Shown in pieces: positions 22,846 through 30,729 of a stretch of DNA of 45,023 bases. A program made the position numbers and the translations under genes. The stretch spans positions 1-45,023 of the forward strand of contig PWNQ01000205.1 in the NCBI GenBank assembly GCA_003557725.1. The letters run 5' to 3'. Position 1 is the stretch's first letter; every line of letters begins with the position of its first letter. The notes beneath the pieces were generated by a model that did not search any database, was not told where the DNA came from, and saw only the letters and a list, made by a program, of their open reading frames with translations. The DNA is from Bacteroidales bacterium (lineage in GTDB: Bacteria > Bacteroidota > Bacteroidia > Bacteroidales > PWNQ01).

Positions 22846-22944
22846 GCCCCCAAAGGGGAGTTAGAGGGGCGCGCGCGCGAGCTTTCCGGTAAGGAAATAA
22901 TCAATCACCTGTGTGTGGAAAAAATTTCGGCATGGGCGTTTCAT
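22846..22944 (-). repeat. ~100-bp dispersed repeat, family 2, copy 1 (reverse orientation)
   Basis: On the minus strand it runs ATGAAACGCCCATGCCGAAA, then CACAC, GATTATTTCCTTACCGGAAA, GCTC and finally CCCCTCTAACTCCCCTTTGG. The copy at 30622-30720 has the same order of blocks. An alternating GCGCGCGCGCGC run sits where the other copies have GCGC-rich sequence. Confidence 0.88.
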
Positions 22945-22985: not shown

Positions 22986-22997
22986 TCACATTTGTAA
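22986..22997. promoter_or_regulatory. operator-like palindrome, one mismatch
   Basis: TCACATTTGTAA differs at one base from the TTACAnnTGTAA palindrome seen next to the XRE gene. It is the most distant site, about 340 bases upstream of the gene. Confidence 0.35.
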
Positions 22998-23263
22998 TCA
23001 GTGCAAAAATGTAACATGTCCGTAAAATATATCCCATGAATAATCAACAAGCGTAAATTTGCCAAAAAACACATCATTTAGCAATTATAATACTCATATT
23101 CAGGTTTAATACAAACTAACCCCAAGTAACACTTTAATAAAAATCCAATAATTTCCAAACCCCAAATCATAAAAATATTATTCACCCTATACCCCTATAT
23201 AAAAGCATTATAAACACACCATATAAACCAAAGATTAAACATAACATCCCACCACCATACATA

Positions 23264-23275
23264 TTACAGATGTAA
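23264..23275. promoter_or_regulatory. operator-like palindrome TTACAGATGTAA
   Basis: A perfect TTACA/TGTAA inverted repeat with a 2-base spacer, 62 bases before the XRE start codon. It does not fit the TAnnTTTG promoter box, so it is better evidence for a protein-binding site than the other copies. Confidence 0.55.
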
Positions 23276-23286
23276 AAACCGTTTGT

Positions 23287-23298
23287 TTACATTTGCAA
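23287..23298. promoter_or_regulatory. operator-like palindrome, one mismatch, overlapping a -7 box
   Basis: TTACATTTGCAA matches the palindrome except at one base. It contains TACATTTG, which fits the TAnnTTTG promoter consensus, so it may be operator, promoter or both. Confidence 0.45.
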
Positions 23299-23310
23299 CC
23301 ACAATTATTA

Positions 23311-23322
23311 TTACATTTGTAA
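23311..23322. promoter_or_regulatory. operator-like palindrome TTACATTTGTAA next to the XRE start
   Basis: A perfect palindrome whose last base is 14 bases before the ATG at 23337. It too contains TACATTTG (23312-23319). Binding here would block transcription or initiation of the regulator gene, suggesting autorepression. Confidence 0.55.
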
Positions 23323-23336
23323 AAAATTTCATCATC

Positions 23337-23939
23337 ATGATTGACCGCATTAAACTATTATTAGAGACCCAGGGGATGACCGCCACGGAATTTGCCGACC
23401 GGTTAGGCATCCAGCGGTCGGGTTTATCGCATATCATGTCTGGGCGTAACAAGGCCAGTCTTGACTTTGTGCGCAAGGTATTAACAGCCTTTCCGGAAGT
23501 ATCCCCCGACTGGTTAATACGCGGCAGCGGGAGCCTGTTGCGTAAAGACCATGCTTCTGCAGCCATTGGTGATGCCCCTGCCACCCGCAGCCATTCTTCC
23601 CCACCGGGTTCTTCCGGCCTGTCAGCAGGCCGTCAGCAGGAAATGTTTCCCTATAGTCATGTGGAACAACCTGAAGAACAAGCGCCTTATGAAAGGGCCT
23701 CCCAGGGGAAAGGCGACCCTGAAGCGCCCCGCCGGGAACAGCAAGAAGTGGGCAGAAGTCGAGAGGATTCTGGCGAAAATAACCGGCACTCCAGGGAAAA
23801 CTACGCCGCAGCCCAACGGGATTCATCTTCCCGTTTATCAGAGGCTTCTCCCAATGTTGAGCAGATGGTTTTGCTTTATTCCGATGGGTCTTTTGAAGTG
23901 TTTAAACCTAAAGGTGCTAAAAAAAATGTGCCGGACTGA
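23337..23939 (+). CDS. XRE family helix-turn-helix regulator
   Basis: I choose the ATG at 23337 (200 residues), because the upstream in-frame ATG at 23283 lies within the operator region and would add 18 residues of unlikely sequence. The first 65 residues form an XRE helix-turn-helix: MIDRIKLLLETQGMTATEFA, DRLGIQRSGLSHIMSGRNKA, then LDFVRKVLTAFPEVSPDWLI. The middle (about 70-170) is low in hydrophobic residues and rich in Ser, Glu, Gln and Arg, so probably disordered. The C-terminal VEQMVLLYSDGSFEVFKP is a motif seen in Bacteroidota XRE proteins. Four palindromes upstream and one downstream match TTACAnnTGTAA, the likely binding site. Its target process is unknown. Confidence 0.88.
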   Translation: MIDRIKLLLETQGMTATEFADRLGIQRSGLSHIMSGRNKASLDFVRKVLTAFPEVSPDWLIRGSGSLLRKDHASAAIGDAPATRSHSSPPGSSGLSAGRQQEMFPYSHVEQPEEQAPYERASQGKGDPEAPRREQQEVGRSREDSGENNRHSRENYAAAQRDSSSRLSEASPNVEQMVLLYSDGSFEVFKPKGAKKNVPD

Positions 23940-23971
23940 TCGGTTAATTGATTTTGGGTGATTCGTACTGT

Positions 23972-23983
23972 TTACAAATGTAA
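23972..23983. promoter_or_regulatory. operator-like palindrome TTACAAATGTAA at the ndk 3' end
   Basis: A perfect match to the upstream palindromes, 33 bases after the XRE stop. It overlaps the ndk stop codon on the other strand. It may be a second binding site flanking the regulator gene. A chance match is less likely given the other copies but cannot be excluded. Confidence 0.45.
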
Positions 23984-24406
23984 CACCCCGCTTGTAGTGG
24001 GGTCTCCGGGGGTAAAGAGGAGGGCTGTTTCTCGTTGTGCGGCCGCATGGCTGTCGGCGCCATGGACGGCATTTTTCCGTAGTGTTTTTCCAAATGTTGC
24101 TCTCAGGGTGCCCTGGGATGCCTGGCTGGGATCGGTGGCTCCCATTAGCTTGCGGTATCGGTCTACGGCTTGATTTCCTTGTAACAGGGCTACGATCACC
24201 GGACCGCTGGTTATGTACTGCACTAATGGGGTGAAAAAGGGTTTTTTGCGGTGTTCTTTATAGAATGCCTGGGCCTGGGCGGGGGTAAGATGGATCATCT
24301 TCATGGCGATGATCTGAAAATCGGCCCGGAGGATTTGATCCAGGATGGCGGGATATTCTTTATCGGCTACTGCCGTGGGCTTGATTATGGTAAGGGTGTG
24401 CTCCAT
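23972..24406 (-). CDS. ndk: nucleoside-diphosphate kinase
   Basis: The 144-residue enzyme balances nucleoside triphosphate pools by transferring a phosphate through a histidine. The opening EHTLTIIKPTAV, the FFTPLVQYITSGPVIVALLQG block, and the active-site motif KNAVHGADS with His115 are all present. The family consensus is NxxHGSDS, and here the first Ser is Ala. Length is normal. It is transcribed convergently with the XRE gene and divergently from the NrnA-like gene, with about 100 bases between starts. Confidence 0.95.
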   Translation of the reverse strand: MEHTLTIIKPTAVADKEYPAILDQILRADFQIIAMKMIHLTPAQAQAFYKEHRKKPFFTPLVQYITSGPVIVALLQGNQAVDRYRKLMGATDPSQASQGTLRATFGKTLRKNAVHGADSHAAAQRETALLFTPGDPTTSGVLHL

Positions 24407-24505: not shown

Positions 24506-25543
24506 ATGACGCCCCGGGAGATCGCACGTATTAACGAATTGTTGGACAAGTCACAAAAGGTGGTTTTAATATCGCATGCCAGTCCTGACGGCGATGCCAT
24601 CGGCTCTATTTTAGCCATGACTGCTTATTTACGGGGTCGTGGTTTGGACCCTCTGCCCATGCTTCCCGATGGGTTGCCTGCCTACTACAGCTGGATGCCT
24701 TACAGTTCTTTGGTGTGCGATGCGGACAGGGAGCCTGACCGGTGCCGCGAGGCGCTGGAGCAGGCAGAGCTGATCATCTGCTTCGACTTTAACGGGTTTA
24801 AACGCGTGGAAGGGCTTCAAGAACCCCTGGAAAAGGCTAAAGGGGTTAAAGTGCTTATTGACCACCACCCCAACCCCCAGAAGGGCTTTGACCATTTGAT
24901 GTCTCAGCCCAGTGCTTCCTCTGCGGCCGAACTGGTGTATTATTTTATCCATGCCCTGGCCGGAACAAATAAGGAGGTCATCGACCTGCCAATGGCTCAA
25001 GCCATATATGTGGGCATGATGACCGATACAGGATCATTCAATTATAACGCCAATAACCCTGAAATGTACAGTGTGATCCGCCACCTGGTTGAAATTGGCG
25101 TTGACCCGGAGCTGATGCATCAACGAATATACAATAACTTCTCTGTTAGACGAATGCGATTTCTCGGAAACGCCCTGCTCAATAAAATGGTGGTGCTGCC
25201 GGACCAGGCAGCGGCATATATCCCCCTTACATTAAGTGATCTACAACAGTTTAAACATCAAAAAGGCGATACGGAAGGACTGGTAAACTACCCACTGAGC
25301 ATTAAAGGCATTGTGTTCTCGGCTTTATTGACTGAAACCAGTGAGTATGTCAAGGCTTCCTTCCGTTCTATATCTCCCTTCGATGTGAACGTGTTTGCCA
25401 AAAATCACTTTAACGGGGGAGGACATATCCATGCCGCCGGAGGGAAAAGTTTTCAGCCTATGACAGAAACTATTCAGCTGTTTGAATCGTTAGTAAAAAG
25501 TAACTACTTAAAACAACTAAAGGATGCACAAAAAAGCATTTAA
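24506..25543 (+). CDS. DHH family phosphoesterase, NrnA-like (nanoRNase/pAp phosphatase)
   Basis: This 345-residue protein has the DHH/DHHA1 layout: SHASPDGDAIGS (residues 23-34), CFDFNG near 93, the signature DHHPNP near 121, and MTDTGSF near 170. The DHHA1 motif NGGGHIHAAGG is near 307. NrnA-type enzymes degrade 2-5-nucleotide RNA and dephosphorylate pAp in the cytosol using Mn2+. It is the first gene of an operon with three FKBP proteins, and its 3' end overlaps the next gene by 20 bases. The pairing of an NrnA-like gene with a GldI-like gene also occurs in other Bacteroidota. Confidence 0.92.
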   Translation: MTPREIARINELLDKSQKVVLISHASPDGDAIGSILAMTAYLRGRGLDPLPMLPDGLPAYYSWMPYSSLVCDADREPDRCREALEQAELIICFDFNGFKRVEGLQEPLEKAKGVKVLIDHHPNPQKGFDHLMSQPSASSAAELVYYFIHALAGTNKEVIDLPMAQAIYVGMMTDTGSFNYNANNPEMYSVIRHLVEIGVDPELMHQRIYNNFSVRRMRFLGNALLNKMVVLPDQAAAYIPLTLSDLQQFKHQKGDTEGLVNYPLSIKGIVFSALLTETSEYVKASFRSISPFDVNVFAKNHFNGGGHIHAAGGKSFQPMTETIQLFESLVKSNYLKQLKDAQKSI

Positions 25544-26096
25544 TACGATTACAGGAATCTGTACTTTGTTCCTTTGGGCTTTGTTTCTGGGGGGATGCAA
25601 CAACGACCCCCCGGTAATTGACGTCACCCCGGAAGCCAGAAACCAGTCATCCCCACACCAAACGCGCAAAGAAGGAATGGTGGTGGTGAATAAGGAGATC
25701 GTTCGACTGGAAGAACAGTTTATAGACAATTACATCCGCCGCCATAACCTTAACGTGACCCAGGCGGGCAACGGCATCCAGTATGATATTTATAAACCCA
25801 ACCCGGAGGGTAAGCAGGTAAACGATGGGGACCGCGTTTCCATGGTCTATTCCTCCAAACTGCTCACCGGAACCATGGTTGAAAGTAAAGATACCATGAA
25901 AACCCGGTCGTTCAATGTAAATGCCTCCCAACACATCCAGGGGCTTCATTTTGCAGCCATGCAAATGAGGGAAGGGGAAAAGGCGGTGTTTATTATTCCC
26001 TCCAAAATGGCCTATGGTGTTACCGGAAAGCGAGGACTGGTGCCCCATAATGCCGCCCTGGTATATGATATCCAATTAACCGCAGTGAACAAATAA
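25524..26096 (+). CDS. FKBP-type peptidyl-prolyl isomerase lipoprotein, GldI-like
   Basis: The 190-residue protein has a lipoprotein signal ending LGGC (Cys25) and then one FKBP-like domain (about 80-188): GDRVSMVYSSKLLTGTMVES, HIQGLHFAAMQMREGEKAVFIIP, MAYG and the closing strand VYDIQLTAV. The pocket tyrosine, tryptophan and FDSS positions are partly altered (Trp replaced in HIQGLH), as in GldI of gliding bacteria. GldI is a lipoprotein needed for gliding in Flavobacterium. Here the assignment rests on size, lipobox and location only, so I leave the symbol blank. It overlaps the upstream DHH gene by 20 bases, implying translational coupling. Confidence 0.85.
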   Translation: MHKKAFNTITGICTLFLWALFLGGCNNDPPVIDVTPEARNQSSPHQTRKEGMVVVNKEIVRLEEQFIDNYIRRHNLNVTQAGNGIQYDIYKPNPEGKQVNDGDRVSMVYSSKLLTGTMVESKDTMKTRSFNVNASQHIQGLHFAAMQMREGEKAVFIIPSKMAYGVTGKRGLVPHNAALVYDIQLTAVNK

Positions 26097-26131
26097 TCTT
26101 AACCCAATTAAATGACAAACGAATAATCACC

Positions 26132-27424
26132 ATGAAAGCCTACCAAATTGTTTTTCCTGCTTTTTTCCTGTTAATGGCATCTTTTTTTTCATGCCACCAG
26201 CCGCCGGAACCCTATCCGGGGTTCAAGTATGCCGAACCGGGAATCTATTATCAATTTCATCACCAGTCGGAAACCGGCATCCGCCCGGATACGGGAGACA
26301 TGTTGACCCTGAGCCTGCGGTGGTACTCGGAAGATACTACCATTTATTTTGATACCCATGACCTCCCCGGAGAGTTTTCCATTATTATGGAAGACCCCAG
26401 AACCTCCATGGACCTGTTTACCTGTTTGAAAATGATGCGTCTGGGTGACAGCGCCACCTTTATTTTACCCCCGGATTCCCTGCTGGGGTATGAGCTCCTG
26501 GAAGACACAGCTTCTATTATCTTGCTGGATGTGAAAATCCTTAATATTGTGCCCCGGGAAGAACACCAGGCCACATTGGAAAAAGAACGCCAGGAAAACA
26601 AAGACAGGGAACGCTCGGAAGTGGAAAAATTCCTGGAGGAGCATAACATCCGCTCCAAAACCACAAGTAGCGGGATACATATATTCAACCATGAGAAAAA
26701 GCCCGCTAACCCACCCGTTGAAGCGGGAAAGGTGGTCATGTTAACCTTTAAGGGCCGCTTGCTCAACGGAGACGTATTTCAGGAAACCTCCCCGGAATTT
26801 GCTTATGTAGTGGGAGAGTCACCCCATTATCCCATCGACTGGGATGAGGGCTTACTGGAAATGAGAAAAGGAGAAAAAGCCACCATGCTGCTGCCCTTCG
26901 ACCTGGCTTTGGGTAGTGAAGGGGCAGAAGGCCTTATCCCTCCCTATTCACCAATAATTATGGAAGTATGGATAAACGATGTGATCAGCAAGCAAGAGTA
27001 TCAGCAAATGCAGCTTTCACAGGGCAGGGATAGCCGGCAAAATGCAGAGAGGGAGATGAAAGAATACCTAAGAAAGCATGAGATCACCCAGGAGCCAACG
27101 GCCAGTGGGCTGGTTTATATCACCCAAAAAGCGGGCACCGGTCCCTATCCGCAGCCCGGAGAAACAGTACAGGTGCATTATACAGGCTATATGCTCAACG
27201 GAGAGGTGTTCGACAGCTCACACAACCGGGGAGTACCCCTGGAGGTGGTTATTGGTCAGGGAGGACTTATACAGGGATGGCTGGAAGCACTACCCATGAT
27301 GCGCCAGGGAGAAAAAGCCAAAGTGATCATCCCCTGGCAACTGGCCTATGGGAGGTCGGGAAAAGGAAATATACCCCCCTTCGCCAATCTGGTTTTTGAG
27401 ATGGAATTAATAAACATTATATAA
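26132..27424 (+). CDS. lipoprotein with three FKBP-like units
   Basis: The 430-residue lipoprotein (lipobox FFSC, Cys21) appears to contain three FKBP units. Unit 1 (about 30-140) keeps only the fold pattern (GDSATFILPPDSLLGYELLE). Unit 2 (about 165-290) has VVMLTFKGRLLNGDVFQ, IDWDEGLLEMRKGEKATMLLP and a closing strand but lacks the usual Phe-Asp pocket. Unit 3 (about 305-430) is canonical: VQVHYTGYMLNGEVFDSS, LIQGWLEALPMM and AYGRSGKGNIPPFANLVFEMEL. So probably one active isomerase plus two chaperone-like or binding units. It starts 35 bases after the GldI-like gene, in the same operon. Confidence 0.9.
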   Translation: MKAYQIVFPAFFLLMASFFSCHQPPEPYPGFKYAEPGIYYQFHHQSETGIRPDTGDMLTLSLRWYSEDTTIYFDTHDLPGEFSIIMEDPRTSMDLFTCLKMMRLGDSATFILPPDSLLGYELLEDTASIILLDVKILNIVPREEHQATLEKERQENKDRERSEVEKFLEEHNIRSKTTSSGIHIFNHEKKPANPPVEAGKVVMLTFKGRLLNGDVFQETSPEFAYVVGESPHYPIDWDEGLLEMRKGEKATMLLPFDLALGSEGAEGLIPPYSPIIMEVWINDVISKQEYQQMQLSQGRDSRQNAEREMKEYLRKHEITQEPTASGLVYITQKAGTGPYPQPGETVQVHYTGYMLNGEVFDSSHNRGVPLEVVIGQGGLIQGWLEALPMMRQGEKAKVIIPWQLAYGRSGKGNIPPFANLVFEMELINII

Positions 27425-27436
27425 ATCTTTATTCAT

Positions 27437-28606
27437 ATGATACGCAATCTGTTGTTCGTTGCAGTGACCCTTATTCTGCTTACCGTCACCGCCTGTTCCT
27501 CATTAAAAAACCCTAAAACAGGGAAGAGCTATAAAACCGATGAAGGGGTGGAGATCACCTTTTATGACCGTGGAGAAGGGCCCACAGCCCAAAACGGTGA
27601 TAAGCTGGAGATGCACTATGTGGGGCGCCTGGAAAATGACTCCATGTTCGGGTCCAGCTATAAACGAAACCAACCCCTGTCCTTTGAACTGGGCAATGAG
27701 GAAGTGATCCGTGGATGGGAGGTGGGCGCCCGGTACATGAAAGAAGGCGATAGCGTACTGATGGTTATTCCGCCGGAAATGGCCTACGGCGACACACGCA
27801 GAGGACAGATTCCCGCCAACTCTACCCTGTACTTTACCGTAAAACTGGAAAACCTGTGGGTAACCCCCAAGCCTTTTGATATTTCAAAAGCCGGAAAAAC
27901 AACCCTGGAGGACGGACTGGAAATATATACCGTGAAAAAAGGGAAAGGACCTGCCCTGCAAGACGGACATTTTGTTACCGTACACTATACCGGCTATCTG
28001 GAAAACGGTGAAGTATTTGACTCCTCCGTGGAGCGAGACGCCCCCATTGATATCCAACTGGGCAAGAATCAGGTGATCCAGGGATGGGAAAAAGCATTGA
28101 AAAACATGACTGTAGGCGAAAAAGCCCGCATAGTTATACCCCCCGAGCTGGCCTACGGACCCCAGGGAAGAGGACAGATACCCCCAAATGCAACCCTCAC
28201 CTTCGATGTGGAGATCGTGGATGCCAAAATGCCCCGAACAACAGAACCGTTCAACGTTGAAGGAAAAGACACCCTGTTTACACCATCCGGACTGGGGATT
28301 ATTAAACTGAACCAAACCGACCAGCCCAAAGCAGCACCCGGGAATGTGGTTACTGTACATTATACCGGATACCTGGAAGACGGAGAAGTGTTCGACTCCT
28401 CCATCGAAGCAGACCAGCCCATCTCATTCCCACTGGGACAAGGACAGGTGATCCCCGGGTGGGATGAAGGCTTGCAACATATGAGAATGGGCGAAAGAGC
28501 ACGACTGATAATCCCTTATCAACTGGGATATGGTGAAAACGGCGCCGGACCCATTCCCCCTAAAGCCAAACTTATCTTTGATGTGGAACTCATGGATATC
28601 AAATAA
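27437..28606 (+). CDS. lipoprotein with three FKBP domains
   Basis: The 389-residue lipoprotein (Cys20 at LTVTAC) holds three FKBP domains. The first (about 40-140) has MHYVGRLENDSMF, VIRGWEVGARYM and IPANSTLYFTVKLE. The second (about 155-265) has VTVHYTGYLENGEVFDSS, VIQGWEKALKNM and IPPNATLTFDVEIV. The third (about 280-389) has VTVHYTGYLEDGEVFDSS, VIPGWDEGLQHM and IPPKAKLIFDVELM. Domains two and three have the full pocket residues and should isomerise prolyl bonds in periplasmic proteins. It starts 12 bases after the previous gene, so the cluster is one operon. The next downstream feature is a repeat copy that can form a hairpin. Confidence 0.93.
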   Translation: MIRNLLFVAVTLILLTVTACSSLKNPKTGKSYKTDEGVEITFYDRGEGPTAQNGDKLEMHYVGRLENDSMFGSSYKRNQPLSFELGNEEVIRGWEVGARYMKEGDSVLMVIPPEMAYGDTRRGQIPANSTLYFTVKLENLWVTPKPFDISKAGKTTLEDGLEIYTVKKGKGPALQDGHFVTVHYTGYLENGEVFDSSVERDAPIDIQLGKNQVIQGWEKALKNMTVGEKARIVIPPELAYGPQGRGQIPPNATLTFDVEIVDAKMPRTTEPFNVEGKDTLFTPSGLGIIKLNQTDQPKAAPGNVVTVHYTGYLEDGEVFDSSIEADQPISFPLGQGQVIPGWDEGLQHMRMGERARLIIPYQLGYGENGAGPIPPKAKLIFDVELMDIK

Positions 28607-30621: not shown

Positions 30622-30729
30622 ATGAAACGCCCATGCCGAAAATTATTCGACACACAGGGGAATGATTATTTCCTTACCGGAAGCTCCCGCACGCGCCCCT
30701 CTAACTCCCCTAAAGGGGAGGACCGGGCC
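30622..30729 (+). repeat. ~100-bp dispersed repeat, family 2, copy 2
   Basis: It contains ATGAAACGCCCATGCCGAAA, TCGACACACAGGGG, GATTATTTCCTTACCGGAA, and CCCCTCTAACTCCCCTAAAG followed by GGGAGGACCGGGCC. CTCCCCTAAAGGGGAG within it is a small perfect palindrome. It begins 10 bases after the FISUMP gene stop. Confidence 0.9.

Follow-up and report, generated by a model that had tools for sequence, protein, structure and literature searches.

The XRE gene and its surroundings

The window analyzed here, a stretch of 45,023 nucleotides from a Bacteroidales bacterium (assembly GCA_003557725.1, contig PWNQ01000205.1), carries a gene for an XRE-family regulator of 200 amino acids, together with a convergent ndk gene and a gene for a NrnA-like DHH/DHHA1 phosphoesterase (Table 1). 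The latter is called nrnA hereafter, with a score below the cut-off of the NrnA equivalog model. Three successive genes for FKBP-type isomerases follow the DHH gene (25524-28606), with one, several and three FKBP domains.

Five palindromic sites had been described on both sides of the XRE gene, and a re-scan of the window recovered all of them: three are perfect copies of TTACAnnTGTAA, a palindrome of the form TTACA-N2-TGTAA, and two depart from it by one mismatch. Inspection of the sequence also bears out that 14 bases separate the site nearest to the gene from the XRE ATG at 23337, and that the ndk stop codon falls inside the downstream site. The three perfect sites lie within 720 bp of each other, in an A+T-rich region. 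Six sites with at most one mismatch occur in the window; the expectation is 1.5, and six was not reached in any of 100 shuffles.

Table 1. Positions of the XRE gene, its domains, the palindromic sites and the neighbouring genes in the window.
Feature	Position	Strand	Description
Candidate distal operator	22986..22997	.	TCACATTTGTAA, one mismatch; 278 bp before site 1
Operator site 1, proximal array	23264..23275	.	TTACAGATGTAA, perfect; array kept in relatives
Operator site 2	23287..23298	.	TTACATTTGCAA, one mismatch; 23 bp after site 1
Operator site 3	23311..23322	.	TTACATTTGTAA, perfect; 24 bp after site 2
Predicted -7 box in site 3	23312..23319	+	TACATTTG, matches TAnnTTTG; sense bias in relatives
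XRE-family regulator, 200 aa	23337..23939	+	PF01381 HTH_3, E 1.5e-10
Lambda-repressor-like HTH domain, residues 1-66	23337..23534	+	Five helices; Pfam, AlphaFold2, Foldseek
Conserved C-terminal beta-hairpin motif, residues ~175-190	23859..23906	+	VEQMVLLYSDGSFEVF; alignment, model pLDDT 86-92 in 171-190 blocks
Downstream site	23972..23983	.	TTACAAATGTAA, perfect; covers last codons and stop of ndk; role doubtful
ndk, nucleoside diphosphate kinase	23972..24406	-	PF00334, E 8e-48; convergent with XRE gene
DHH/DHHA1 phosphoesterase, NrnA-like (nrnA)	24506..25543	+	PF01368, PF02272

With 41.4 bits against a gathering score of 23, the HTH_3 match places the protein in the XRE/HTH_3 family. The assigned start codon is backed by an alignment of 27 family members, in which M1 is invariant and HTH_3 is matched by all 27 sequences; at E <= 0.001, family matches are found in 251 of 295 sampled Bacteroidales genomes. 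In the same alignment a conserved HTH (residues 1-66) is followed by a linker that varies in both length and sequence, and then by a C-terminal motif, again conserved, that spans about 20 residues and reads approximately IEKIVxFYxDxTFxEYxP. The AlphaFold2 model agrees with this division, being confident in the five helices of the HTH and in a C-terminal beta-hairpin, with low confidence for the linker. The hairpin of the window protein is covered by no Pfam family and is a possible oligomerisation element.

The best Foldseek matches of the HTH include 434 Cro, the 434 repressor and SinR, which share the DNA-binding fold; the alignment, however, is confined to the HTH, and the linker and hairpin of the XRE protein have no counterpart in these regulators. 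Pfam detects no S24 peptidase/oligomerisation domain in the protein, and a disordered linker with a short hairpin stands in its place. Weak similarity of the HTH domain extends to the RstR-family phage repressors (NF041951, 21 bits) and the HigA antitoxins (TIGR02607, 19 bits), but these scores are far under the curated NCBIfam cut-offs of 80 and 47.7 bits and leave the protein outside both families. Its immediate neighbours (ndk, the DHH gene and a prolyl oligopeptidase gene) are likewise neither phage nor toxin genes, with no HigB toxin gene adjacent.

Conservation of the sites and their overlap with the promoter

In order to follow the palindrome among relatives, 130 orthologous Bacteroidales loci were collected, representing the better half of the protein matches and ranked by protein match and not by motif; 128 of them were counted upstream. 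Within 150 nt of the XRE ATG, a perfect site is present in 76 of these 128 loci and a site with at most one mismatch in 115, leaving about 10% of loci without such a site near the ATG. The 150-nt regions hold 108 perfect sites and 261 with at most one mismatch, compared with 0.47 and 7.9 in dinucleotide shuffles, while the corresponding regions of nrnA and ndk at the same loci, taken as a control, contain no perfect site. When every palindrome with 5-bp arms upstream of the XRE gene is counted without bias, TTACA-N2-TGTAA comes out as the commonest (76 loci), and most of the remaining frequent forms are offset versions of it. In a broader sample of the class, in which 42 of 99 genomes gave a match, relatives outside the order also have a site near the ATG. 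Hymenobacter matches in the first collection scan (L005 and L006) were discarded as orthologues, as they are S24-type proteins without the motif.

Of the palindromes that flank the gene on both sides, the upstream ones are conserved among relatives. The site at the ndk stop codon does not share this conservation, perfect downstream sites being found in only 4 of 129 loci.

The XRE gene is preceded by two or three copies of the palindrome at regular spacing. Across the 130 loci, start-to-start distances peak at 23 bp (27 pairs) and 24 bp (35 pairs), 62 pairs together, with lesser peaks at 33-34 bp (14 pairs) and 46-47 bp (34 pairs); in the window, the steps from 23264 to 23287 and from there to 23311 are 23 and 24 bp.

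The sites also meet the promoter. The Bacteroidetes -7 promoter consensus is TAnnTTTG (PMC7366714), and, as the earlier note had pointed out, the -7-like sequence TACATTTG is contained in the sites at 23287 and 23311; for the box in the site at 23311, a transcription start at about 23325 is predicted. At the family loci, TAnnTTTG in the ATG-proximal site occurs 83 times in the sense orientation and 11 times reversed, whereas the other sites show 40 and 34. Moreover, TTACTTTTGTAA, in which the palindrome is broken and the -7 box intact, is found 14 times among proximal sites, as compared with once for its mirror image. Because of this sense bias and of the excess over the mirror image, the proximal site can be regarded as operator and promoter at once, which lends support to the earlier suggestion of promoter occlusion. 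A -33 TTTG element is not evident at the family loci. At about 20 of them, for instance L025 and L027, the operator/-7 box stops 1-5 bases before the ATG, an arrangement that would predict very short or leaderless transcripts.

Among the other explanations, the one that fares best is activation or dual regulation by the protein, with upstream sites recruiting the polymerase and repression setting in once the promoter-proximal site fills, as for lambda CI at its own promoter. The presence of several sites upstream of the -7 box, the lack of an evident -33 element and the lambda-like spacing agree with such an arrangement, but the proximal site and the -7 box overlap as a conserved feature, which speaks for repression, and we consider activation improbable.

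It could also be argued that the sites belong to a winged-helix repressor of the BlaI/MecI/CopY type and that the XRE gene is merely its target, given that the core TACAnnTGTA is nearly identical: the CopY operator core is reported as TACANNTGTA, with TACA/TGTA also attributed to BlaI/MecI (PMC7253601). That family is, however, unrelated to XRE. The corresponding domain (Penicillinase_R, PF03965) has no match in the XRE protein nor anywhere in the genome, a strong though not absolute argument in an assembly that is ~93% complete, and on these grounds BlaI/CopY was rejected as the reader of the sites. Furthermore, PF03965 gene loci in four other genomes contain no perfect site, whereas the sites track the XRE gene across the order, whether its neighbours are ndk/nrnA or pyrD. 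This alternative is thus highly improbable, and the use of nearly the same core by an XRE repressor and by the unrelated BlaI/CopY proteins would make the core alone unfit for assigning regulators.

An origin of the palindromes by chance, from A+T-rich intergenic sequence combined with the -7 box TAnnTTTG that TTACATTTGTAA indeed contains, can practically be discarded in view of the 108 perfect sites against fewer than one in dinucleotide shuffles, of the nrnA and ndk upstream regions devoid of perfect sites, and of the sites not nearest to the ATG, which keep the palindrome without the -7 bias.

Genome-wide distribution of the palindrome

The assembly (2.82 Mb in 236 contigs) contains four perfect TTACAnnTGTAA sites, three of which are at the XRE locus, and a reversed-pattern control gives one. 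The fourth lies within a coding sequence on another contig (C161), which encodes a methyltransferase-like protein, and was dismissed as a regulon member for its position inside this unrelated sequence. Since the motif is this rare genome-wide and three of its four perfect copies are found here, the clustering at the XRE locus is not attributable to chance. With one mismatch allowed there is no excess in the whole assembly (70 sites against 118 for the reversed pattern), and hence the signal consists of a local cluster of near-perfect sites.

A similar picture emerges from 52 genomes for which both counts are available. The XRE locus holds 61 of 258 perfect TTACAwwTGTAA sites, and the 197 sites elsewhere compare with 161 for the control pattern, with a median excess per genome of 0, that is, the motif is at background away from the locus. 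The earlier note had proposed a genome scan to define a regulon; in this assembly and in the 52 genomes there is none to define, and a genome-wide regulon was rejected. Control is therefore predicted from these counts to be local, and a large regulon is absent.

Some genomes do show a global excess of the motif. In one of them (G115; loci L048-L062, even numbers), 16 dispersed TTACAWWTGTAA sites, mostly TTACAATTGTAA, were counted against 0 for the control, and these possibly belong to the regulon of another regulator.

A model of local autoregulation and the distal sites

Taken together, these findings allow us to propose, with a probability of roughly 0.85, that the XRE protein represses its own gene as a stand-alone regulator, acting locally through a cooperative operator array. 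The autoregulated XRE protein put forward in the earlier note finds strong support in the conservation of the sites, present in 115 of 128 loci and representing the leading palindrome of their kind; the conservation of operators at its own promoter is one of the marks of an autoregulated XRE repressor.

According to this model, XRE dimers would bind the TTACAnnTGTAA palindromes, and the spacing of 23-24 bp suggests that neighbouring dimers lie adjacent on nearly the same face of the DNA helix, where they could bind cooperatively. Occupation of the array would block RNA polymerase at the -7 box in the gene-adjacent site, holding the protein at a set level, and the C-terminal hairpin, carried on its disordered linker, may join dimers. 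The reach of control would comprise the XRE gene itself and, in relatives, also a same-strand pyrD directly downstream. In this regard, the XRE loci occur in two main settings, ndk/nrnA (59 loci) and pyrD/pyrK (45 loci), and the sites are retained in both. Where pyrD lies on the same strand, its frame begins within ~60 bp of the XRE stop at about half of the loci, and pyrD would consequently share the XRE promoter there.

More distant XRE relatives (L179, L180, L182, L184, L186 and L187) have a C-terminus that looks like a coiled coil and not like a hairpin, and several of them retain TTACAnnTGTAA-like sites near the ATG.

While the general idea of an autoregulated XRE repressor is classical, the conserved operator appears to be undescribed, as had been surmised: searches with exact motif strings and keywords gave no relevant paper among the open-access literature. 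A defined operator on the promoter makes the XRE protein directly testable, and the repressor-operator pair could serve Bacteroidetes genetics.

A close parallel is the lambda system. Lambda OR has three operators spaced 23 and 24 bp, and CI shares with the XRE protein the lambda-repressor-like HTH, the number and spacing of the operators and the overlap with the promoter. The two systems differ in that the XRE protein lacks the cleavable S24 peptidase domain, recognizes what would be a different palindrome and is encoded in the chromosome, beside nucleotide-metabolism genes.

A further likeness concerns a second, distant group of sites. In lambda, two sets of three operators are brought together by looping (PMC5880393), and the XRE family likewise has a distant group: between -700 and -200 from the XRE ATG, the family loci contain 68 perfect sites against 0.55 expected, a cluster as far above chance as the proximal one. 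It shows no -7 bias and is not accounted for by simple promoter occlusion. The idea that it serves as the promoter of the upstream gene was rejected, since the cluster occurs irrespective of the orientation of that gene (49 of 64 loci where it points towards the XRE gene and 28 of 31 where it points away). DNA looping between the clusters is possible, but unlike in lambda the distal spacing reveals no helical phasing with the proximal cluster at the family loci, and looping here is only a possibility. A broader proposal would see a lambda-switch-like circuit, with a cooperative three-site promoter array and a looping distant cluster, as a chromosomal control element conserved in Bacteroidales and in additional orders of the class, one that sets the level of a regulator tied to pyrimidine/nucleotide genes (pyrD/pyrK or ndk/nrnA); we offer it tentatively and regard it as rather unlikely.

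The intergenic region that holds the distal cluster is unusually long, with a median of ~630-710 nt, and no gene is recognised in it. A hidden small RNA or small protein was considered for this region and rejected, as neither an Rfam family common to the loci nor a conserved small ORF was found between the clusters.

A dispersed intergenic repeat is also present in the window at 22847-22941, with a second copy at ~30622-30718; its core (...GAGCTTTCCGGTAAGGAAATAATCATTCTCCTGTGTGTCGAAAAAATTTTCGCCATGGGNGTTTCAT) has a sharp end at GTTTCAT, and at least 40 copies occur in the genome, many of them near contig ends. In a relative of the same genus (L008; 557-615 and 973-1014), the operator array is found ~460 bp upstream of the XRE ATG, with a portion of the dispersed repeat in between, as if sequence had been inserted between the promoter and the gene.
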